The notes under the pieces are model-generated. The model searched no databases. It had not been told where the DNA came from and was given only the letters and a program-made list of their open reading frames with translations. The position numbers and the translations under genes are program-made. From Thalassotalea fonticola (GTDB taxonomy: Bacteria; Pseudomonadota; Gammaproteobacteria; Enterobacterales; Alteromonadaceae), in NCBI RefSeq assembly GCF_032911225.1, contig NZ_CP136600.1:2046001-2110000 (forward strand): 64,000 nucleotides of DNA, given 5' to 3'. Below, one piece after another: positions 28,175 through 55,273 of this stretch (its first letter is position 1; every line of letters begins with the position of its first letter).

Positions 28175-28963
28175 TTATTTTAAAGTCACGGGCTCTCTAA
28201 GTAAGCCTTGCTCTACCCAGGTTGATAAATAATGCAGCGCTAGTTCACTAGCATCGTTATTGCTTGAATAGGTTAATAACTGATCGCACATCATGGAAAA
28301 ATTTTTACCGCTTAATATCATCGACATTAGCGTGAACTCTTCTTCGCTCAGCGAGCGAAATTCGGTTAGACGCTCATTATTTCGCCATAATAACCAGGTG
28401 CTTTGTTGAGGTGTTGCGGCCTTGGGAGAATGCTCTTGCTTTAATGCCTGCCAGCTTTCAATCGAATTCCAAGAGAAATGGGCAATTTGTACACTGGGGT
28501 GAAATTTGAACATTAACTCAGGCCAGTCTTGAGGGGCAATGCTATGCAGGGTGTCAAATGTCATTCTAGTAGCATCAGCTGCATCAAAGGCAACTAATAA
28601 TAACCGTTCAAAATGCGCAAGTTCACTTAAAATAGGGTGTTGCTTAAAGGGCAATTGCGTCGCTAAAAAGTTAGGGAGTTGATCGGCAAAGTGTCGTAAT
28701 GAGCGATAACTCGATGGATGGTTTTGAATATAGCCAGAGACCATTTGCTCAAACAGCTCGTCACCTAAATAAAACCCTAATATTTGATGATCGTTATCAA
28801 TAACTTCTTTTAATCTTGCTGAGTAGGCATTTTTATATATGTTTAAGCGAGTTTTATTACTTACTTTTCCTTGCCTGACAATATCAGCGCAGATGCGATT
28901 ATCATCGTTAAGAAGATAGTTCATCATGTTATTTTGTAGCTCTTTTAAAGGTATATTGCTCAT
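28175..28963 (-). CDS. bufC: DUF2063 (BufC/HvfC-type) partner of MNIO enzyme
   Basis: At 262 residues, it has the N-terminal DUF2063 domain (NIYKNAYSARLKEVIDNDHQ) and a C-terminal helical domain. In bufferin and related RiPP systems this protein binds the precursor peptide and presents it to the MNIO (DUF692) enzyme. It starts 7 nt after that enzyme's stop, so the two are coupled. It is the last gene of the operon here; no DoxX-type gene follows. Confidence 0.85.
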   Translation of the reverse strand: MSNIPLKELQNNMMNYLLNDDNRICADIVRQGKVSNKTRLNIYKNAYSARLKEVIDNDHQILGFYLGDELFEQMVSGYIQNHPSSYRSLRHFADQLPNFLATQLPFKQHPILSELAHFERLLLVAFDAADATRMTFDTLHSIAPQDWPELMFKFHPSVQIAHFSWNSIESWQALKQEHSPKAATPQQSTWLLWRNNERLTEFRSLSEEEFTLMSMILSGKNFSMMCDQLLTYSSNNDASELALHYLSTWVEQGLLREPVTLK

Positions 28964-28970
28964 TGAACGC

Positions 28971-29813
28971 CTAACTAGTATTTATCTGGTTCAGTGTTTT
29001 ATCGGCTATTTCACGGGCGATATCAAGCTCGTTAAGTAATGTTTGTAATGGCGGAATATTATCGTCTCGTTCAATCATGGTGCTTATCCAACCAAAGCGC
29101 TTTAATGCTTGCCGGTAGAGTTGCCACACTGGGTCGGCAACGGCATGGTCATGGGTATCAATAACATAATCGCCGTAATCGCTGTGACCGGCTAAATGAA
29201 ATTGTCGAACTTTGTCTTTATCTATGCCTTGTAAATAAGATTCGGCTGAAAAGTCATGGTTTCGCGCACTGACATAAATATTATTTATATCTAATAGAAT
29301 ATGGCAATCTGCGCGGTTCACTATCTCGTTGAAAAACTGCCATTCAGTCATCTCACTATTTTGATAAGTCAGGTAACTTGAAACATTTTCTAATAAAATT
29401 TTACGGCCTAAAAAGTCTTGCACTTGTTTGACTCGGTCAACTACATGCGCGATGGCTTCTTCGTTATACGGTAGTGGCAGTAAATCATGAGTATTGGTGT
29501 GGTCATTACCCGTCCAGCATAAATGATCTGAAATCCATTTTGGCTGCAACTCATTGGTTAGTTTTTTTAGTTGCCGTAAATAATTCATATCTAATGGGTC
29601 TGTTGAACCAATTGATAAAGAGACTCCATGCATTACCATAGGGTAGTGCTCTCTAATTGCATGTAAGTAATGCTTGGGTTTTCCGCCGTTTATCATAAAG
29701 TTTTCAGAGACAACTTCAAACCAGTCTAAATTAGGGCGCGTATCAAGTACATCCTGAAAATGTTCCGTGCGCAAGCCTAAACCAAATCCTATAAAGTGAT
29801 CTGGCGCTGTCAC
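28971..29813 (-). CDS. bufB: MNIO (DUF692) RiPP-modifying iron enzyme, BufB-like
   Basis: This is a multinuclear non-haem iron oxidase that oxidatively modifies Cys residues of the co-encoded peptide. The TIM-barrel motifs are clear: GLGLRTEHFQDVL, DWFEVVSENF, MHGVSLSIG, WISDHLCWTG, ENVSSYLTY, HILLDINNIYVSARNH, FHLAGHSDYG, IDTHDHAV and TMIERDDNIP, which together supply the His, Glu, Asp and Asn metal ligands. The open frame runs to 30002 but the extra N-terminus lies inside the peptide gene and has no homology. Starts after the peptide stop are GTG 29813 (280 residues, used here) or TTG 29852. Neither has a clear ribosome site. Confidence 0.88.
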   Translation of the reverse strand: MTAPDHFIGFGLGLRTEHFQDVLDTRPNLDWFEVVSENFMINGGKPKHYLHAIREHYPMVMHGVSLSIGSTDPLDMNYLRQLKKLTNELQPKWISDHLCWTGNDHTNTHDLLPLPYNEEAIAHVVDRVKQVQDFLGRKILLENVSSYLTYQNSEMTEWQFFNEIVNRADCHILLDINNIYVSARNHDFSAESYLQGIDKDKVRQFHLAGHSDYGDYVIDTHDHAVADPVWQLYRQALKRFGWISTMIERDDNIPPLQTLLNELDIAREIADKTLNQINTS

Positions 29814-29828
29814 AATTGCGGGAGCTCG

Positions 29829-29846
29829 AGAGGGCGAATGCCCTCT
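29829..29846 (-). promoter_or_regulatory. Hairpin between bufferin precursor and MNIO gene
   Basis: AGAGGGC and GCCCTCT form a perfect 7-bp, GC-rich stem with a 4-nt loop in the gap between the precursor stop (29863) and the MNIO start. It lacks a T-run, so it is not an ordinary terminator. It may protect the upstream peptide mRNA or reduce translation of the enzyme relative to peptide. Confidence 0.55.
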
Positions 29847-29862
29847 TTCCAAGGGAATGTTA

Positions 29863-30330
29863 TTAAGAGCCAACCGTACCCCCAACGTCGTCACATGCAG
29901 CTGCTGACAACGCAACAAAGCCATGTCCTTTACAGGCCGCTTGACCTTTACAGGCATTTTCAGCGGTTTTACAGTCGTTGTGACCTTTACACACATTAAC
30001 ACCGTAACAATGCGTTAACTCCGCAGTATTGACTTCACCGCGCCAATCATCTTTCACTGTACCACCAATGTCAGCACAAGTTTTCGTCGACATGGCAACA
30101 AACCCATGTCCTTTGCAAGCAGCCTGGCCTTTACAGGCATTTCCAGCGGTTTTACAGTCATTATGACCATTACATTTATTAACGCCATAACAATGAGCCA
30201 TCTCAGCGACATTTGTCGCTGCGGACTTAGTTGACACATTTTCTGGGGCTGCATTGGCAATGCCCATCATACCTGCAACAGCCAGTGCTACTGCACTACC
30301 TTGAAGTTTAACCTTAGTATTGTGTTTCAT
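29863..30330 (-). CDS. bufA: Bufferin-type metallophore precursor with two tandem Cys-rich units
   Basis: The 155-residue precursor has a signal peptide (cleavage near IANA, residue 27) and two near-identical units, residues 44-92 and 105-153. Each unit contains six Cys in the pattern [20 protein letters not shown], then [14 protein letters not shown] and a final Cys-Asp/Ala-x-x-GG. This is the BufA2 style of bufferins, exported RiPPs whose Cys are converted to thiooxazoles that bind copper and similar metals. I chose ATG 30330 since GGAGAG lies 7 nt upstream; an ATG at 30375 is also in frame. The duplication of the core is notable: single-unit precursors are the usual form. Confidence 0.88.
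29884..30187. repeat. Tandem internal duplication in the metallophore precursor
   Basis: The DNA encoding residues 105-153 (about 29872-30018) and residues 44-92 (about 30055-30201) is a direct repeat at about 183-bp spacing, highly similar at protein level (for example GHNDCKTA and [16 protein letters not shown] are shared). The boundaries are approximate. It is the product of an in-frame duplication of the modified domain. Confidence 0.75.
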
Positions 30331-30500
30331 TTTACTCTCCGTTGGTTCTATTACGGTCTTAGTAAGTTTAGTCATAAGACCTTAAAAGTGTTATCAGCGT
30401 GAAATCACGCAAACACTTAACATAACGTTAACGCCGTTAATCAATTGACCTTAGAAGCTAGAAACTTCTTTCAACTTTAAATTTTACGGAGAGTAAACAA
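30331..30500 (-). promoter_or_regulatory. Structured 5' leader of the bufferin operon with anti-ribosome-site sequence
   Basis: Read leftward, TTTACTCTCCGT (30497-30486) is a perfect 12-nt complement of ACGGAGAGTAAA (30342-30331), the ribosome site immediately before the precursor ATG. Between them lie a hairpin at 30386-30418 (AAGTGTT/AACACTT with an inner GCGTG/CACGC) and a TTAACGCCGTTAA palindrome (30428-30440) that could be an operator. If transcription begins upstream of 30497 the leader could hide the ribosome site. No convincing -35/-10 pair was identified. Confidence 0.45.
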
Positions 30501-44320: not shown

Positions 44321-44503
44321 ATGTTCCCTGGGGTGTTCGGTTATTAACTATGTCCCTGAGCCGATAAGTTTTACCTAAGGGGGTTTATCGATTGCTATTG
44401 AGCAGGCCCAACTTGTTTGGGAAGCCTACGGTAATTGTGCGATCTCCGCCTTGAACACACGGTTGTTCGAGGACTAAAGTTGGTAACGGCATTTTGGGGA
44501 ACT
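44321..44503 (+). ncRNA. ssrS: 6S RNA (SsrS)
   Basis: 6S RNA mimics an open promoter and inhibits sigma-70 RNA polymerase. About 183 nt; the two ends pair (TTCCCTGGGGTG near the start with CATTTTGGGGAAC at the end), and internal blocks match E. coli 6S: GTCCCTGAGCCGATA on the left arm, GAGCAGGCCC and GGGAAGCC on the right, and a CCTTGAACA segment near 44450. It sits directly upstream of ygfA, as in other gammaproteobacteria. Confidence 0.9.
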
Positions 44504-44510
44504 GTTAAAT

Positions 44511-47729: not shown

Positions 47730-48290
47730 ATGAATAGCATGCCAGCACAAACTAAAACCGACTGTCGCATTAATGCCACAGTCGGTTTTTCAATTAATAC
47801 AGAAAATATAAAAATATCACTGCTTTCAATCGCAGATAAAGCACTGTATTTGCAATTGTATTGCAATGCACAAGTGTGTAGGCATATTGGTGGCGCCATA
47901 AGTAGTGACCAAGCAACCATAGGGTTTGAACGCAGCCTCAAACAAAACCGAGTTGGCAAGCGCTTAACCTGGGTGATTAAAGATAAAAATAGAAATGAAA
48001 ATTTAGGCATTGCTGCCTGTGTTTGGCCGAAAAAACCTTCATCAGAAACCGACCTCGTTTCAAAATACAGCGCAGAATTAGGCTTGTTATTATTGCCACA
48101 ATTTTGCGGCAAAGGCGTGGCGGTAGAAGTGCTTAATGCGTTAACATTTTTCGGCTTAAACAACTTACAATTAACCCAGCTAACCTTAACTTGCGCAGTT
48201 GATAATATTGCTATGCAGAAGGTGATGGGGAAATTAGCCTTTGCTTATCAGAGTAATAATGATTTAACGTATTGGGAGCTAAGGGACTAA
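47730..48290 (+). CDS. GNAT family N-acetyltransferase
   Basis: At 186 residues, this is a RimJ/RimL-type GNAT (Acetyltransf_3): KISLLSIADKALYLQLYCNA then a strand-turn LGIAACVWPKK, and the acetyl-CoA segment LGLLLLPQFCGKGVAVEVLN, whose pyrophosphate loop has GKGVA in place of the usual Q/R-x-x-G-x-G/A. Ends with the AFAYQSNNDLTYWEL tail. It starts at ATG 47730 (or 47739) inside a hairpin, and is followed after 24 nt by the borosin methyltransferase on the same strand. It may tailor the peptide or be an unrelated neighbour. Confidence 0.82.
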   Translation: MNSMPAQTKTDCRINATVGFSINTENIKISLLSIADKALYLQLYCNAQVCRHIGGAISSDQATIGFERSLKQNRVGKRLTWVIKDKNRNENLGIAACVWPKKPSSETDLVSKYSAELGLLLLPQFCGKGVAVEVLNALTFFGLNNLQLTQLTLTCAVDNIAMQKVMGKLAFAYQSNNDLTYWELRD

Positions 48291-48314: not shown

Positions 48315-49139
48315 ATGAATAACAATTCTAACTTGAAAAAAGGCTCGCTGGTGTGTGTCAGCACTGGTATGCAACTGGGCGCTCATATTAGCCCGATAAG
48401 CCAAAGCCATATTGAAAATGCCGATATCGTATTTGCGGTAATGGCCGACGGTATTATGCAAAAGTGGGTAGAGAGCATGAACCCGAATGTGTTTAATATG
48501 CAGCAATTTTATCAAAAAGGTAAACCGCGATCCGACACCTACGAAGAGATGATGCAGACAATGCTGAGCGAGATGCGCAAAGGCAAAAATGTGGTTGGCG
48601 CATTTTATGGGCATGCGGGGGTATTTGTTACGCCGTCACATAAAGCCATAGCGATTGCCAAAGCCGAGGGTTATTACGCCCATATGGAGCCGGGTATTTC
48701 GGCCGAAGATTGTTTATTTGCCGATTGCGGCATAAACCCGGGTCAATTGGGCTGTGCCAATTATGAAGCCACGCAACTGGTGTTTTATCAGCGTAATATT
48801 GATGCTTGTGGTTATTTAATTTTATGGCAAGCGAATATTGTCGGCGATAGAACGTTAATTAAACGCGCAACCAACAGAAAATATCGACAATTATTAGTCG
48901 ATGTTTTAAGTGAGCATTACCCGCTTGAACATGAAGTGATTTTATATGAGGCGCCAACGCTGGCCATTGATAGCCCCAGAGTTGAGTCGATAACGTTAGG
49001 CGACTTTATCAACGCGCCATTAAAGCCACATACTACGCTAGTATTACCGCCAAGTAAGCCATTACGTCGTAATGCAGACATTTTTGAACAATATGAACAA
49101 CTTGAAGCAAATGTGGTACAGCTTGAATTAGTAAAATAA
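48315..49139 (+). CDS. Borosin-type peptide alpha-N-methyltransferase (SonM-like, split form)
   Basis: The 274-residue protein has the tetrapyrrole-methylase fold (GSLVCVSTGMQLGAHISPIS, GHAGVF, MEPGISAEDCLFADC). The catalytic residues of borosin backbone N-methyltransferases line up in number and spacing with fungal OphMA: Tyr66, Arg72 and Tyr76 in FYQKGKPRSDTY, and Tyr98 in GAFYGHAGVF. Unlike OphMA, the substrate is not fused; a separate 85-residue peptide gene follows 97 nt downstream, as in Shewanella SonM/SonA. It should use SAM to methylate amide nitrogens of that peptide. Known borosin methyltransferases act as dimers that enclose the peptide. Confidence 0.88.
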   Translation: MNNNSNLKKGSLVCVSTGMQLGAHISPISQSHIENADIVFAVMADGIMQKWVESMNPNVFNMQQFYQKGKPRSDTYEEMMQTMLSEMRKGKNVVGAFYGHAGVFVTPSHKAIAIAKAEGYYAHMEPGISAEDCLFADCGINPGQLGCANYEATQLVFYQRNIDACGYLILWQANIVGDRTLIKRATNRKYRQLLVDVLSEHYPLEHEVILYEAPTLAIDSPRVESITLGDFINAPLKPHTTLVLPPSKPLRRNADIFEQYEQLEANVVQLELVK

Positions 49140-49236
49140 AAGATTAATAATGAAGTGTGCGTGGTACCTTGTATAAGGCAGAAACGCAAAGCTGAAAAAC
49201 AACGCCTAAAAAGTAAAAACAAAAATAAGGATTTTT

Positions 49237-49494
49237 ATGAATAACGTAATTAAATTACTGGCGCAATTAGGCGCCGATGCCACCTTAAATGTAAGCCAAC
49301 AAACGCGCATTACCGCGATGATGAACGAGCTAAATATTGCTAAAGCGCAGCAACAAGCCATTTTAGCCGGTGATGTTCAGGCATTAAATAGTTTGCTTGA
49401 TATTTGCCCTGACATTGTTTGCAATGTTAATCAACCGGATGGTCCTGATGAAGATGATGATGAAGAAGAGCAGCCGAAAATTAGTTTTGGTTAA
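49237..49494 (+). CDS. Borosin precursor peptide (SonA-like)
   Basis: This is an 85-residue peptide with a helical leader (NNVIKLLAQLGADATLNVSQ to about residue 53) that resembles the borosin-binding domain of split systems, and then a probable core DICPDIVCNVNQP (55-67) with two Cys and beta-branched residues. The tail is acidic (DEDDDEEE, 71-78) and ends QPKISFG. An AAGGA ribosome site lies 6-7 nt before the ATG. The methylated residues are probably in the I/V-rich 56-64 block; the exact sites are inference. Stops 41 nt before the first GGDEF gene. Confidence 0.82.
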   Translation: MNNVIKLLAQLGADATLNVSQQTRITAMMNELNIAKAQQQAILAGDVQALNSLLDICPDIVCNVNQPDGPDEDDDEEEQPKISFG

Positions 49495-49535: not shown

Positions 49536-51449
49536 ATGAATATTTATCGCTCAGCTAATAAACACGGCACTTGTAACAATATAAGTGCCTGTTTTTTAGG
49601 TGCGTTGGTAATATTTTTACTTAGCGTTCTTTACTCAACTCACAGTATTGCCTCAGAGCAAACATTTCCTATTGCAACTACAGAAAAGCAAAGTACACAT
49701 ATTTTAACCCACACAGAAATTGATAATTTATTAGCGCAAGCGCTTAAGGTTAAAAGCTCAAATAAAGCAGAATCAGCGCGCATAATTGCTCAACTAGAAA
49801 CTATTCATTCACAATTAAATTACCGCCAACAAGGCGAATTAACCTATTTAAGCGCGTATAACGCGTATTTAATGGGCGATAGACATAAATCAGTGGCGCT
49901 GCATAAAACTATGCAAAGCTCAAAATTGATTAACCAACGCGTTAGAGCGAGCAGTACGTTATTAAACCTTTACTTAATAGAACAAAATTATATTGAGGGT
50001 GCGAAGATAATACCGCTACTATTGCAAGAAACTGAAAATTTATCCGATACAAATACAAAAGGCGATGTCTATGAAGTAATTGCCTATTATTATAATGATT
50101 TAAACCAACCAAAAACTGCCCTTACATTTTTAGCCCTAGTAAATACTGAGAACTATTCCGCCCGAGATCATTGTTATCATTATAGCCACAGTACTGATGC
50201 TAAATTACAACTGTCTGGTTATTTGGCGCAGCAAAACTATATTGATAACACCATTGAGGTATGTGAGCAAGCAGGTGAACATCTCTCGGCGAACATTACT
50301 CGTACAGATATTGCAAAACACCTACTTGAACAGCAAAAATACCAACTTGCCCTTGATGTATTACAGCCTAAATTGAGCCATGTAGAAGCGATAGACTACA
50401 ACAACTTACTTCTTAGTTTTTATAGCTATATCGCCACCGCATACTTTCATATAAATGATTTCAACCAGTCGTTAAAGTTTGCCCAAAAAGCTGAAGCCGT
50501 GCCGATGACAGTGAAGTATCACAATGCCTATATCGACTTATATTCAACATTGTCAGCGCTACATAATAAACTTGGCGATGATGATAAAGCGCTGGAATAT
50601 TTACACATTTACCAAGAAAAGTTAGCGGTAAGTTTAGATGTAGAGCAACAAAAGCAACTAGCGAGCACACAAACAGAACATGACGTGTATGGCACTTACC
50701 GTTATAGAGACAGACTTGCTAAACAAAAACAATTGGCCGAGCAAAAACACAACGATGCTTTTAGCAAAATGTTAGGTTATATAAACAAGTTTGAACAAGG
50801 CCGGATACTCTTTGCTGTGCAAATATTTGGTATATTACTGTTGGGCGCGGGCATATTATACATTCGCCATATACAAATCAGCGAGAATAATAAAAACCGT
50901 CATGATCCGTTAACCAAGCTATTTAACCGCAACCGCTTTATTGATTTAACGGCAACCACTGTATACCAACACAAAAAATGGCAAATTGACTTAAGCTATT
51001 TAGTGGTTAACATCGATAACTTCAGGGCTTTTAATCAACAATACAACTGCGCTAAAGGCGACCAGTTATTATTGCTTATTACGCAAGTTTTGCGTAATTA
51101 CGTGAATAAAGATGAGCATATAGCTCGCACTGGCTCTGATGAATTCAGCTTATTGTTGCCTAAGTACAATGCCAAACAAGCAGTAAAAATTGCTGAAAAC
51201 ATTCAAATTGAAATCGCAAAACTCAACAACGAAATGCAGCTAGAAGATAATGTGGTAAACGTGAGCATTGGGATTACCGACGTTGAATTAAGCGAGTATT
51301 CATTAAAGTATTTACTCTCTGACAGTTCAAAAGCATTGCGCAAAGCGAAAGCTGGTGGCGGTAATAAAAGCTGCTGCTTTGAAGCTGCAATGACGGATCG
51401 TGATAAGTACAAAGTAGACGAAAACGAATTAAAGTACATTTTTGAGTAG
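49536..51449 (+). CDS. Exported TPR/membrane/GGDEF protein, paralogue 1
   Basis: This 637-residue protein has a signal peptide or first helix (about 19-40), a periplasmic region of TPR-like helical repeats (about 65-385), a transmembrane helix near 425-450 (FGILLLGAGILYIRH) and a cytoplasmic GGDEF domain (DPLTKLFNRNRFIDL, then NIDNFRAFNQQY). The active-site loop is GSDEF at residues 533-537 in place of GGDEF, and the inhibitory RxxD site is NxxE. So cyclic-di-GMP synthesis may be reduced or lost. It begins 41 nt after the borosin precursor and is the first of three paralogues. Confidence 0.85.
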   Translation: MNIYRSANKHGTCNNISACFLGALVIFLLSVLYSTHSIASEQTFPIATTEKQSTHILTHTEIDNLLAQALKVKSSNKAESARIIAQLETIHSQLNYRQQGELTYLSAYNAYLMGDRHKSVALHKTMQSSKLINQRVRASSTLLNLYLIEQNYIEGAKIIPLLLQETENLSDTNTKGDVYEVIAYYYNDLNQPKTALTFLALVNTENYSARDHCYHYSHSTDAKLQLSGYLAQQNYIDNTIEVCEQAGEHLSANITRTDIAKHLLEQQKYQLALDVLQPKLSHVEAIDYNNLLLSFYSYIATAYFHINDFNQSLKFAQKAEAVPMTVKYHNAYIDLYSTLSALHNKLGDDDKALEYLHIYQEKLAVSLDVEQQKQLASTQTEHDVYGTYRYRDRLAKQKQLAEQKHNDAFSKMLGYINKFEQGRILFAVQIFGILLLGAGILYIRHIQISENNKNRHDPLTKLFNRNRFIDLTATTVYQHKKWQIDLSYLVVNIDNFRAFNQQYNCAKGDQLLLLITQVLRNYVNKDEHIARTGSDEFSLLLPKYNAKQAVKIAENIQIEIAKLNNEMQLEDNVVNVSIGITDVELSEYSLKYLLSDSSKALRKAKAGGGNKSCCFEAAMTDRDKYKVDENELKYIFE

Positions 51450-51574: not shown

Positions 51575-53410
51575 ATGACGATCAAATTAGCGCAATGTTT
51601 TGGCTTTTGCTTTTTTCTGCTCGTCGGTTTCGGTCTTATTAGTATACCTGCACAGGCAAATAGCTTAACGGGCACTGAAATTGATAAATTAATTTCACAA
51701 GCGATTGCCGTTCGTTCCAGTGATAGCAAGATATTCAACCAAAACCTTGATTTATTAACGGAACAAAAAGCGCTACTTAGCCCCGCACAAAATGAAGAAT
51801 ACCTATATTTACAAGCCTATAAATTGGGCATTGAAGGCAATTTTAAACAGTCAATTATTGCCCACAAAAAAGTGGAACACTCAAAGAACATTAATGTAAG
51901 AGTAAGAAGTTTAAAAACCCAATTAAATTTACAATTTTTAGCCAATAACTTTGCTGAAAGTAATGCTTTGGTCAATAAACTATTAATCGAGTTGCCTACC
52001 TTAACAAACGGCTCCTTGAGAAACGATATCTTAGAGACTATCGCTTTTTATTATAATCATATAGAAGAGTTTAATTTGGCATTAAATTATCTAAAATTAA
52101 TCGATAAAGAGCATAATTATAACCGCGATATATGTTATCAGGAAGAATTTAATCTATTGAGTTTATTAGGGCTGAAGCAAATAACGGCCGATGATCCAAC
52201 CATTTTTGAGCACATTAATTTCTGCTATAAAAATAATGAATTTATAATGGGTAATAGCTTATTATTAGAGCAAGCAAGGTATTTAAACCAAGAGCAAAAA
52301 CACGCACAAGCCATTGAGGTGTTAACAGCTCAGAAAACACAAATTTTGGCGAACAAATTTACGCCTCATTATCAAATGTTATTTAGCCAATTATCCAGCG
52401 CTTACCTGGGGCTTTCGCAACTTGAACTTGCTAAAGAATACGGCGAGAAAGCATTGGCGCAAGTTAAAGATAATGATCATTCAAAATGGGCGCTGCAAAT
52501 TTACCAAATACTCGCCAACATTGCCAAGCAACAGGCTGATTTTGAGCTAGCGATAGATTACTTACTGCGCTACGAAAAAATTCAACGAACAATTAACTCT
52601 ATTGAACAGCAAAAAGCCTATGCTCGGGCGCAAATAGATCATACACGTTTTAATAAAGTACAATACAAGCACAAACTCGTTAAGGAAAAAATCCAAGCAG
52701 AACAAAAACATAACAATGCCTTTAGCGAAATGTTAAGTTATATAAACAAGTTTGAAAATGCCCGGGTGTTACTTGCTATACAAATATGTGGCATATTATT
52801 GTTGGGAGCAGGTATATTATATATTCGTCATTTACAAATAGTTGAAAATGAAAAAAACCGTCATGATCCATTAACCAAGTTATTTAATCGCAATCGCTTT
52901 ATTGATTTAGCGGCAACCACTGTTTACCAACATAAAAAATGGCAAATGGACTTAAGCTTACTAGTGGTTAACATTGATAATTTTAGAGGCTTTAATCAAC
53001 AACACAGTTATAACAAAGGCGACCAATTATTAACGCTAATTGCGCAAATTTTACATAATTACGTGCGCATTGATGAGCATATAGCGCGTACCGGCGCCGA
53101 TGAATTTAGTTTATTGCTACCTAAATTCAACGTCAAACAAGCATCACAGATTGCACAAAACATTCACCTTGAAATGGCAAAGGTCAGTAATGAGTTGCAG
53201 CTAGAAGATGAAGAGATAACTGTTAGCATAGGTATAAGTGACGCTGAATTAAGCGAGTTTTCATTGAAGTATCTAATCGCTGACAGCTCAAAGGCATTGC
53301 GCAAGGCGAAAGCTGATGACGGCAATACCAGCTGCTGTTTTGAAAGCTCAATGACCGATCGTGAAAAATATAAAATTGACGATAACGGCTTAAAGTATTT
53401 TTTTGAATAA
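51575..53410 (+). CDS. Exported TPR/membrane/GGDEF protein, paralogue 2
   Basis: This 611-residue paralogue of the preceding protein has the same order: signal peptide (cleavage near IPAQA), TPR-like periplasmic part, helix near 400-420 (GILLLGAGILYIRHLQ) and GGDEF domain (DPLTKLFNRNRFIDLA). The active loop is GADEF at 507-511 and the I-site is RxxE. The N-terminal motif EIDKLISQAIAVRSSD recurs in all three copies. Intergenic distance to the first copy is 125 bp. Very similar in its C-terminal third to copy 1 and more diverged in the TPR part, as expected when the sensor evolves faster. Confidence 0.85.
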   Translation: MTIKLAQCFGFCFFLLVGFGLISIPAQANSLTGTEIDKLISQAIAVRSSDSKIFNQNLDLLTEQKALLSPAQNEEYLYLQAYKLGIEGNFKQSIIAHKKVEHSKNINVRVRSLKTQLNLQFLANNFAESNALVNKLLIELPTLTNGSLRNDILETIAFYYNHIEEFNLALNYLKLIDKEHNYNRDICYQEEFNLLSLLGLKQITADDPTIFEHINFCYKNNEFIMGNSLLLEQARYLNQEQKHAQAIEVLTAQKTQILANKFTPHYQMLFSQLSSAYLGLSQLELAKEYGEKALAQVKDNDHSKWALQIYQILANIAKQQADFELAIDYLLRYEKIQRTINSIEQQKAYARAQIDHTRFNKVQYKHKLVKEKIQAEQKHNNAFSEMLSYINKFENARVLLAIQICGILLLGAGILYIRHLQIVENEKNRHDPLTKLFNRNRFIDLAATTVYQHKKWQMDLSLLVVNIDNFRGFNQQHSYNKGDQLLTLIAQILHNYVRIDEHIARTGADEFSLLLPKFNVKQASQIAQNIHLEMAKVSNELQLEDEEITVSIGISDAELSEFSLKYLIADSSKALRKAKADDGNTSCCFESSMTDREKYKIDDNGLKYFFE

Positions 53411-53425
53411 TGGATAAACATTTAG

Positions 53426-55273
53426 ATGATTAAACCCAACTGTTATTTGCTTAAACAGTTTAAAGCGTTTAGCAAATATGTATGCTCGGTATTAACTATA
53501 TTGGTACTTATACCTGTATTTAGTCACCTATCGTATGCTACAGAGAACCTTACAGCTATTGGTGATTTATCTACTGATGAGTTGATAAGCAAAGCAATAA
53601 AGGTAAAAAGCAGCGATTTAGAGTTGAATCAAACGATTATAAATGCACTAAAAATACGCAGTTACAATATGAACTGGCAACAACAAGATCAATATGAGTA
53701 TTTGATCGCTTATGAACAAATTTTATTAGGAAATTATCAACAGGCCATTAAACTTAGCAGAGCAAATATAAATTCCAGAAACATTAACTTTAAGCTTAGG
53801 GCGTATAATACCATCCTGTTTTTAAATGTATTGCTTGGCCAATATTTAGATGCTGCAGAAAATATAAAGCCGGTTTTAGCCGCGTTAAAATCCCCGCAGT
53901 TAGATACTGAAACATTCATTAACACCTACACTACGCTAGCCTATTTTTATAATCAGTTAGATGAACCACAACAGGCGCTAGAGTTTGTAGAACACGTAGT
54001 TGTTAGTGACGATATGCATATAAGCGACAGACAGCAATGCTTTTTGGGTATGCAGCATATTTATGCATTGCAAGGACTGAAAAAATTACAGAATAATGCC
54101 AGCCTCATCGACCAATATTATGATGTTTGCCATAATATTAATGAAAAACTGATTGCTGATCAGATTGTTTCAGCCCATGCATTCGCACAGCTTAATAATA
54201 ACCTGCCCGATAAGGCATTAAAATTGTTGCTAGGCAATTATCAACATGTACTAAATCAGAATTATCCGCAGAATCACATGCGTTTTAACAGCTATCTAGC
54301 CAAAGCCTATCTACAACTGAATAACGTTAGCGAAGCAGGTGAATATGCCGATAAAGCATTAGCGCTGGCAAGTGAGCACCCGTATCATCCTACATTAATG
54401 TTCGCTTATGAGGCTAAATATGAATTGGCCAAATTTAATCAAGATAAACAAGCTGAATTTAGCTCACTACGCAGTAAAATTAACTTACAGCATGAGCTGG
54501 CGCTAAAAAGCAAAGAAAAATCTTTAGCGTTGAACAGTCTAAAGTATGATTTAAAAGAGATTGAAGGTGAACTGCTAGGTTATAAAACAGCAATAAATAA
54601 TGAATTAGAACAAGAGCAAATAAAAATTGGTAACAACAGCGTGTTCGCCAACTTTTTAATCAGTAACAGGCTCATTCAATTGGTATTGTTCGGCTCTATT
54701 ATCTGGTTGATCAGAGCTAACTTCATCAACTGGAAAATTAAGCAACAAATTGTCGCTGATCTGGTGTTTGATAAATCGACCCATTGTTTACATCGTCATG
54801 CTTTTTTACAACAAGCAAAGCAGTTATTAACGCAAGCTAAGCAAGATTCTCAGCCATACAGTTTAGTGATAATGAATATTGATAACTTGCGAGAAGTGAA
54901 TGAAATACAAGGTAATGATAGATCTGACCGGTTAATAAACCTGGTGCTGAACCTGCATAACCAAATATTTACCGAAGCTGGTCTAGTGGGTCGTTTAGGT
55001 GGTGATGAGTTTGGTTTTTTATTAAAAGACTGCGCAATGAAACGAGCAATAGAGTTGTGCGAGGAATACCGTTTGGCGATAAACTTTTTGGATACCAAAC
55101 AAATTTGTTACCAATTTGATGTGACCGCAAGCTTTGGTGTAAGTGATACGCATATAAGTGGTTACAGCATGATGAAACTATTAGCGAATACTGAACAGGC
55201 ACTTAAACAGGCCAAAGATGAGTTTAAGAACTGTACTTGCGGTTTTGAGAGTGACACTGTTATTGCAAGATGA
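53426..55273 (+). CDS. Exported TPR/membrane/GGDEF protein, paralogue 3
   Basis: This 615-residue third copy starts 15 nt after copy 2. It keeps the signal peptide, STDELISKAIKVKSSD motif, TPR-like region and a membrane helix (about 415-430). Its active loop is canonical GGDEF (RLGGDEFGFLL, residues 525-529), but the usual DxLT-LxNR block is replaced by DKSTHCLHRHAFLQQ and the inhibitory site is absent. It is the most diverged of the three, yet the only one with an intact GGDEF. It may be the active cyclase, with the others as sensors or partners. Confidence 0.85.
   Translation: MIKPNCYLLKQFKAFSKYVCSVLTILVLIPVFSHLSYATENLTAIGDLSTDELISKAIKVKSSDLELNQTIINALKIRSYNMNWQQQDQYEYLIAYEQILLGNYQQAIKLSRANINSRNINFKLRAYNTILFLNVLLGQYLDAAENIKPVLAALKSPQLDTETFINTYTTLAYFYNQLDEPQQALEFVEHVVVSDDMHISDRQQCFLGMQHIYALQGLKKLQNNASLIDQYYDVCHNINEKLIADQIVSAHAFAQLNNNLPDKALKLLLGNYQHVLNQNYPQNHMRFNSYLAKAYLQLNNVSEAGEYADKALALASEHPYHPTLMFAYEAKYELAKFNQDKQAEFSSLRSKINLQHELALKSKEKSLALNSLKYDLKEIEGELLGYKTAINNELEQEQIKIGNNSVFANFLISNRLIQLVLFGSIIWLIRANFINWKIKQQIVADLVFDKSTHCLHRHAFLQQAKQLLTQAKQDSQPYSLVIMNIDNLREVNEIQGNDRSDRLINLVLNLHNQIFTEAGLVGRLGGDEFGFLLKDCAMKRAIELCEEYRLAINFLDTKQICYQFDVTASFGVSDTHISGYSMMKLLANTEQALKQAKDEFKNCTCGFESDTVIAR

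Follow-up and report, generated by a model that had tools for sequence, protein, structure and literature searches.

Split borosins, in which the methyltransferase (MT) and the precursor peptide are separate, are known, and 11 types, 0 to X, have been distinguished (PMC11395268; statements drawn from this paper and from PMC8429565, PMC4814920, PMC2761423 and PMC8846402 refer throughout to the parts of them that were at hand). The closest described system to the locus treated here is SonM/SonA, the type IV split borosin of Shewanella oneidensis, in which L63 and I65 of the precursor SonA are methylated, and Y58, R67, Y71 and Y93 of SonM serve to hold the core peptide, determine the rate or assist in binding S-adenosylmethionine (PMC8429565). 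We analyzed a stretch of 64,000 nucleotides (nt) from Thalassotalea fonticola (GCF_032911225.1, NZ_CP136600.1, positions 2,046,001 to 2,110,000 of the forward strand; hereafter, the window). An earlier note on this DNA, which had proposed a split borosin pair, was silent on its surroundings, namely the downstream genes for proteins with tetratricopeptide repeats (TPR) and a GGDEF domain, the GNAT gene upstream and the pepsin-type protease gene found in relatives. Six plus-strand genes with short gaps between them encode the GNAT enzyme, the MT, the precursor and three TPR-GGDEF membrane proteins (Table 1). On balance, we lean towards reading them as a split-borosin operon with a signal product, in which a peptide predicted to be N-methylated would be bound by a periplasmic TPR receptor with cyclic dimeric GMP (c-di-GMP) as the output of the signalling.

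The split borosin pair of the window

The MT of the window has the TP_methylase fold (PF00590, 48.5 bits with a cut-off of 27.8), and its closest relative of solved structure is SonM, with which 124 of 247 aligned residues are identical; the fused fungal enzymes dbOphM (E = 4.2e-52), OphMA (about 4e-50) and MroMA (2.2e-42) are further such relatives. OphMA and dbOphMA are fused borosins of the same MT fold and sequence family, whereas in the window the MT and the core are on separate chains, as they are in S. oneidensis, whose borosin product is reportedly named shewanellamide. The borosin catalytic residues that the earlier note had recognized, and to which it gives the same numbers in OphMA, align with those of SonM (Table 1) and were invariant across the 107 MT sequences collected, including that of the window. 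The MT was present (MT search, E <= 1e-20) in 170 of 395 genomes of the family and in 95 of 394 genomes of the order. For comparison, 102 loci were used: the window, L007, 20 stretches (13 of which had been picked for precursor matches) and 80 loci picked by hand on MT matches alone. The stretch of L057 has no MT, so that counts are given over 101 MT loci.

That the MT is an ordinary precorrin/siroheme-type methylase of the same broad Pfam family, PF00590, with a small open reading frame (ORF) next to it by chance, is scarcely conceivable and is already refuted by the alignments. The MT did not group with such methylases under loss of the Tyr/Arg/Tyr residues, the outcome that the earlier note had set against its own proposal, and no precorrin or siroheme methylase was among the 25 solved-structure sequences listed for it at E <= 0.001. 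We rejected this identity on the similarity to SonM and OphMA together with the catalytic residues, and we rejected chance for the small ORF, a homologue of which was found by profile in the stretch of 98 of the 101 MT loci.

The precursor, found 97 nt from the MT gene as claimed, aligned with the SonA leader without gaps over about residues 5-53, weakly (E = 0.73-1.3 in a single-sequence search); a pteridine reductase ranked above SonA in this search (E = 0.08), probably by chance. Alone against a large protein database, it matched three proteins, itself counted. An iterative profile seeded with it and run on the ORFs of the 102 loci expanded from 77 proteins to 126, SonA-type precursors among them. 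A 26-row precursor profile matched 151 proteins in the large database, of which the best 120 were listed; its Shewanella matches are not independent proof, because the profile already includes SonA-type rows. With a structure model of low confidence (mean predicted local distance difference test score, 61), the 12 best Foldseek matches were all SonA chains (best E = 0.22). The SonA orthologue of a Shewanella relative (L182) matches 7ltc_B at E = 2.4e-38 and is followed at once, as in the window, by a GGDEF gene of the same family; TPR and GGDEF domains were scanned in its sister, L183.

The locus of the window resembles SonM/SonA in its separate MT and precursor, the four active-site residues and the weak, gap-free leader alignment. 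It differs from SonM/SonA, as described in PMC8429565, in that its precursor is longer, ends in an acidic tail and has a Cys in the core, in the GNAT gene of the operon and in the three TPR-GGDEF genes. Sequence, catalytic residues, gene order and the conservation of the MT-precursor pair support the split borosin proposed in the earlier note; the two genes are almost certainly such a pair, with backbone N-methylation as its predicted activity.

In the longer precursors, the leader is followed by a core with Cys at 62, in many cases by a P-A-E-D-like exit, and by an acidic tail; the exit and the tail are mostly missing from the short SonA-like ones. A hypervariable core was rejected, since a core motif of approximately [IV][VI]C-h-h-h-P-A-E-D recurs; the genus of the window departs from it. 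The Cys pair of the window had been called unusual in the earlier note. This does not hold for C62, as Cys occupies that position in 80 of 105 precursors linked to a putative TPR-GGDEF receptor; C57 is rarer (17 of 105). Position 66 is Pro in 77 of the 105, where it leaves no methylatable amide, because Pro has no amide hydrogen to replace; the window has Gln. In L135 (3531-3971), a precursor-like protein of 146 amino acids (aa) has four similar repeats, K-A-[LVF]-[FL]-[FV]-A-N-D-G-Q-E-F, and is perhaps a multi-core precursor.

A conserved operon with putative receptors and a pepsin-type protease

A precursor followed by a TPR-GGDEF gene was found in 89 of the 101 MT loci (88 of 100 without a duplicate, as L007 and L159 are one contig whose locus was counted twice), and in 69 of the 80 loci picked by the MT alone. 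A GGDEF gene comes within 600 nt after 105 of the 126 precursors (98 within 100 nt, 22 overlapping), which gives 102 distinct receptors. Under one rule for both sides, GGDEF follows 99 of the 126 precursors versus 13 of 879 other ORFs. An all-against-all comparison of 1299 neighbouring ORFs placed the MT in 101 loci, GGDEF in 100, GNAT in 76, the precursor in 37 (as one BLAST cluster) and the pepsin in 34, with each family below these five in at most 19 of 101 loci; of the 22 most widespread families, those outside the top five were judged by their first 80 residues and look mostly like housekeeping ones, and one was domain-scanned (AstE/AspA). A GNAT gene was in the stretch of 77 of the 101 MT loci, in 75 of them on the MT strand within 3 kb. 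Distinct precursor-receptor pairs are repeated two or three times in nine loci, and two precursors share one receptor in L056, L137 and L141. The precursor and the TPR-GGDEF protein probably form a functional pair. That the peptide gene directly precedes a membrane sensor gene in many relatives, and frequently has a pepsin-like protease gene close by, suggests a signal function for the peptide.

Several loci depart from this arrangement. L122 and L138 have a GGDEF gene after the MT, and no precursor was recognized in them. The GGDEF-family proteins of L051 are too diverged for the GGDEF seed, the receptor of L185 is divided into two shorter ORFs, one of 413 aa and one of 154 aa, and L168 has two precursors, no receptor and, as its sole pepsin trace, a pepsin-like ORF of 104 aa; L051, L185 and L168 may be read as a decay series of diverged, split and missing receptor. 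A GGDEF gene was not recognized in the stretches of L188, L192, L193, L194, L196, L197 and L198. Among these, L192-L194, L196 and L197 have the MT and a short SonA-like precursor and are probably other split-borosin types.

The hydropathy of receptor 1 showed an N-terminal hydrophobic stretch (16-34), the TPR ectodomain, a second hydrophobic stretch (424-442) and the GGDEF domain behind it; the ectodomain is predicted to be periplasmic and the GGDEF domain cytosolic. The GGDEF genes of the collected loci form one BLAST family, and TPR matches, some below the Pfam cut-off, were obtained for all five proteins scanned. The ectodomain matched seven proteins in the large database, itself counted. 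It was modelled as a TPR superhelix, for which the best solved matches include the Rap pheromone receptors, tied with others; NprR and AimR structures are also among the matches. Rap, NprR and PlcR are cytosolic TPR proteins. The receptor of the window, in which a modelled TPR superhelix is the candidate peptide reader, recalls the RRNPP family (Rap/Phr, NprR, AimR) and is not a member of it: its TPR part is predicted to lie in the periplasm, a GGDEF domain anchored in the membrane is attached to it, and its peptide is predicted to be N-methylated. An active diguanylate cyclase has the signature RxGG[DE]EF and a metal-binding Asp. Both are present in 94 of the 104 receptors aligned, and each of the three proteins of the window deviates from this set (Table 1).

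The fifth most widespread neighbour family is an A1 protease of 422-573 aa (PF00026, 74.2 bits in L007). Full-length pepsin-type proteases were found in 33 of the 101 MT loci, each on the MT strand and usually as the first of the tagged genes; all 33 have both catalytic Asp residues and none has a signal-like stretch. They share the DTGS/DTGA dyad and the sizes of the bacterial pepsins shewasin A and D (PMC4814920; PMC2761423), and the L140 protease (441 aa) has D36 and D300, as tabulated there for the Colwellia psychrerythraea pepsin. PF00026 occurs in 43 of the 394 genomes of the order, 37 of which have the MT versus 58 of the 351 others (Fisher P = 5e-20, without correction for shared ancestry and with both searches assumed to cover the same 394 genomes). 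The protease and the MT are far apart in part of the 37, including most genomes of genus g58; of the six pepsin genomes without the MT, five have frames of 382-406 aa and the sixth, G535, one of 427 aa. In the genus of Shewanella (g57), a hand count gave the protease in 8 of 9 genomes with the long GNAT-type MT versus 0 of 17 others (Fisher P = 5.8e-6), with the MT type assigned after the data had been seen, as MT E < 1e-80 (G672, at 1.0e-78, falls among the others) and, for eight of the nine, also by the fetched locus.

PF00026 had no match in the genome of the window. The model was silent in all 14 control genomes, so that this absence rests on its success in the relatives, and another protease must act in the organism of the window, because no pepsin was found there. 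Shewasin D is reportedly mainly cytoplasmic, favours Leu, an aromatic residue or Asp before the cut, and has its optimum at pH 3.5-4.0 (PMC4814920); the in vivo function of bacterial pepsins was still to be understood (PMC4814920, PMC2761423). Whether the operon pepsin matures the peptide where it is present is evenly balanced in our judgment, which was lowered by the low pH optimum.

Covariation and competing explanations

Distances on 104 precursor-receptor pairs were compared by partial rank correlation, each controlled for the remaining parts. The counts in brackets are not exact probabilities, because the permutations assume exchangeable pairs and the pairs are related. Leader variation tracked the MT, and core variation tracked the receptor but not the MT: leader-MT, 0.29 (0/200 permutations reach it); core-MT, -0.05 (149/200); core-ectodomain, 0.26 (0/200). 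The same pattern was obtained with the long precursors only, with one pair per locus and with a wider core. When the genus of the window was left out, core-ectodomain was 0.25 (0/300) and core-GGDEF 0.13 (6/300). After dereplication by the MT (n = 29), core-ectodomain was 0.39 (0/300), core-MT -0.23 (290/300), leader-MT 0.32 (0/300) and leader-ectodomain 0.15 (25/300). In 12-residue pieces of the leader, the MT signal ranged from 0.29 down to 0.07 (residues 37-48). Receptor swaps within loci broke the core-ectodomain agreement (0/300 reach it) and not the core-GGDEF agreement (136/300).

By analogy with SonM/SonA, the MT would grip the helical leader of the 85-residue precursor and methylate backbone amides in the hydrophobic core around C62. 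The core would then be cut out, in many relatives perhaps by the pepsin-type protease of the operon and in the organism of the window by another protease, and it may be acetylated by the GNAT enzyme. Once in the periplasm, which N-methylation would help it to reach by favouring membrane passage, the mature peptide would bind the TPR part of the membrane protein encoded next to it, and in most relatives this protein would control c-di-GMP through its cytosolic GGDEF domain. The genus of the window has degenerate GGDEF sites, and its receptors would signal weakly, by binding, or through another output. We put forward tentatively, at somewhat less than an even chance, the wider proposal that the split borosins of these marine gammaproteobacteria are a peptide-pheromone system, in which a protease-proof, membrane-passing N-methylated peptide is matured by a pepsin and sensed by a c-di-GMP-producing receptor with a Rap-like TPR part in the periplasm.

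That the mature peptide is the ligand of the TPR receptor seems to us slightly better than an even chance, with several observations weighing against it. TPR superhelices are versatile binders, and Rap shares its rank among the matches with unrelated TPR proteins; a degenerate GGDEF signature was seen in the window and in each of the six congeners with a recognized precursor-adjacent GGDEF gene; and 12 of the 101 MT loci are without the precursor-receptor pair. A signal-like stretch occurs in just 3 of the 126 precursors, no transporter was recognized among the 22 most widespread neighbour families, and the acidic optimum of shewasin D, despite its mainly cytoplasmic location, fits cytosolic maturation poorly. 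The core also tracks the GGDEF domain (0.25, 0/200; range 0.10-0.26), core-ectodomain is weaker for a narrow core of residues 59-66 (0.14, 4/200), the whole leader tracks the ectodomain (0.15-0.24), the leader-GGDEF correlation reaches 0.27 (0/300) after dereplication, and in the within-locus swaps leader-ectodomain (0/300) and tail-ectodomain (1/300) behaved like the core. Since the core follows the GGDEF domain and the leader follows the ectodomain and the GGDEF domain too, the split between leader and core is not clean and partly reflects co-inheritance. A comparison of core K61 with acidic receptor columns did not separate the receptor from the MT and was set aside as uninformative (best ectodomain column, P = 7.7e-7; best MT column, 2.7e-6).

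Three other explanations have to be weighed against this ligand. Borosins are known natural products and GGDEF proteins commonly regulate, and the same linkage data would fit an ordinary split borosin that makes a secreted natural product (an antibiotic, metallophore or the like), with GGDEF genes that just regulate the operon or its timing through c-di-GMP; we consider this unlikely, as a mere regulator leaves unexplained the repeated precursor-receptor pairs of nine loci and a core that tracks the receptor and not the MT. Still more doubtful is a precursor that acts unprocessed, its methylated form or core serving the GGDEF protein as a co-factor or inhibitor inside the cell or at the membrane and not as a diffusible signal: the rarity of signal-like stretches, the missing transporter, the core-GGDEF correlation and the 68 of 101 MT loci, window included, without a full-length protease in the stretch would suit it, whereas the core tracks an ectodomain predicted to be periplasmic and a third of the loci have a protease with both catalytic Asp residues. 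The core-receptor agreement may also be linkage only, of neighbouring genes duplicated and transferred together. The swap test points to joint inheritance of precursor and ectodomain with no special role of the core, because leader and tail behave alike, and the leader-GGDEF correlation of the dereplicated set agrees with this. Plain linkage does not easily explain, however, that in every subset tried the leader tracks the MT and the core does not, because both are in one small gene; we regard it as an improbable explanation on its own.

The operon would tie split borosins and pepsins to one circuit of MT, precursor and receptor; the genes of the candidate ligand and the candidate receptor are neighbours in dozens of genomes, among them those of relatives of the laboratory species S. 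oneidensis. In the literature covered, borosins and GGDEF were found together in PMC11395268 only, where an overview figure legend spells out GGDEF, so that at least one borosin type is drawn with such a domain; neither a paper joining borosins and pepsins nor a statement of what bacterial split borosins do was found. The literature covered for these three points is without the main borosin surveys, which could describe a GGDEF or pepsin link. A review of leader-removing proteases of ribosomally synthesized and post-translationally modified peptides (RiPPs; PMC10885120) does not contain the words aspartic, aspartyl or pepsin. The part at hand of a review of c-di-GMP inputs (PMC8846402) mentions neither TPR nor tetratricopeptide, and gives autoinducer-2 (AI-2) and the Burkholderia diffusible signal factor (BDSF) as the quorum signals with direct receptor evidence. 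If the ligand reading is true, a ribosomal N-methylated peptide would join the short list of signals feeding c-di-GMP, and the pheromone reading with pepsin maturation would provide both the bacterial pepsins (shewasins) and the bacterial borosins with a biological function.

Coordinates and other features of the window

Table 1. Features of the predicted operon, with positions in the window
Feature	Position	Strand	Evidence
GNAT acetyltransferase, 186 aa; candidate tailoring enzyme	47730..48290	+	PF13302, 62.9 bits; 24 nt upstream of MT
Predicted split-borosin backbone alpha-N-methyltransferase, 274 aa	48315..49139	+	SonM 7ltc, E = 3.7e-76; Y66/R72/Y76/Y98 = SonM Y58/R67/Y71/Y93
Putative precursor peptide of 85 aa; leader helical and borosin-binding-like, then core, then acidic tail	49237..49494	+	Weak gap-free SonA leader alignment; family of 126 in 102 loci; low-confidence Foldseek SonA
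Core region as compared, residues 58-69, P-D-I-V-C-N-V-N-Q-P-D-G	49408..49443	+	Family columns; Cys at 62 in 80/105
TPR-GGDEF membrane protein 1, 637 aa, signature RTGSDEF (degenerate)	49536..51449	+	PF00990, 101.1 bits; hydropathy, motif, TPR model
Terminator-like 10-bp hairpin and T-run, 3' of precursor; possible attenuator	49566..49589	+	Similar hairpin in L047
TPR-GGDEF membrane protein 2, 611 aa, signature RTGADEF	51575..53410	+	PF00990, 98.7 bits; motif
TPR-GGDEF membrane protein 3, 615 aa, RLGGDEF, Asn replacing first Asp of metal site	53426..55273	+	PF00990, 74 bits; motif

The longest ORF of receptor 1 contains the terminator-like hairpin in its 5' end, although the receptor may start further downstream. 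The hairpin might raise the level of the precursor above that of the receptor. As a general feature, a terminator-like hairpin after the precursor was rejected (12 of 105).

The operon is flanked by genes that we take from their sequences to be serA-like (upstream) and yqgF-like (downstream, convergent). A 6S RNA (RF00013, 97.1 bits) lies at 44322-44504 (+), followed by an ORF that presumably encodes 5-formyltetrahydrofolate cyclo-ligase, an ordinary arrangement. A second RiPP-like locus at 28175-30375 (-) encodes an MbnB/TglH/ChrH-type enzyme (PF05114, 386 bits), a DUF2063 partner and a Cys-rich 170-aa ORF of two similar halves, which had no Pfam match at E = 0.01; we take this locus to be a bufferin-type cluster from its appearance.
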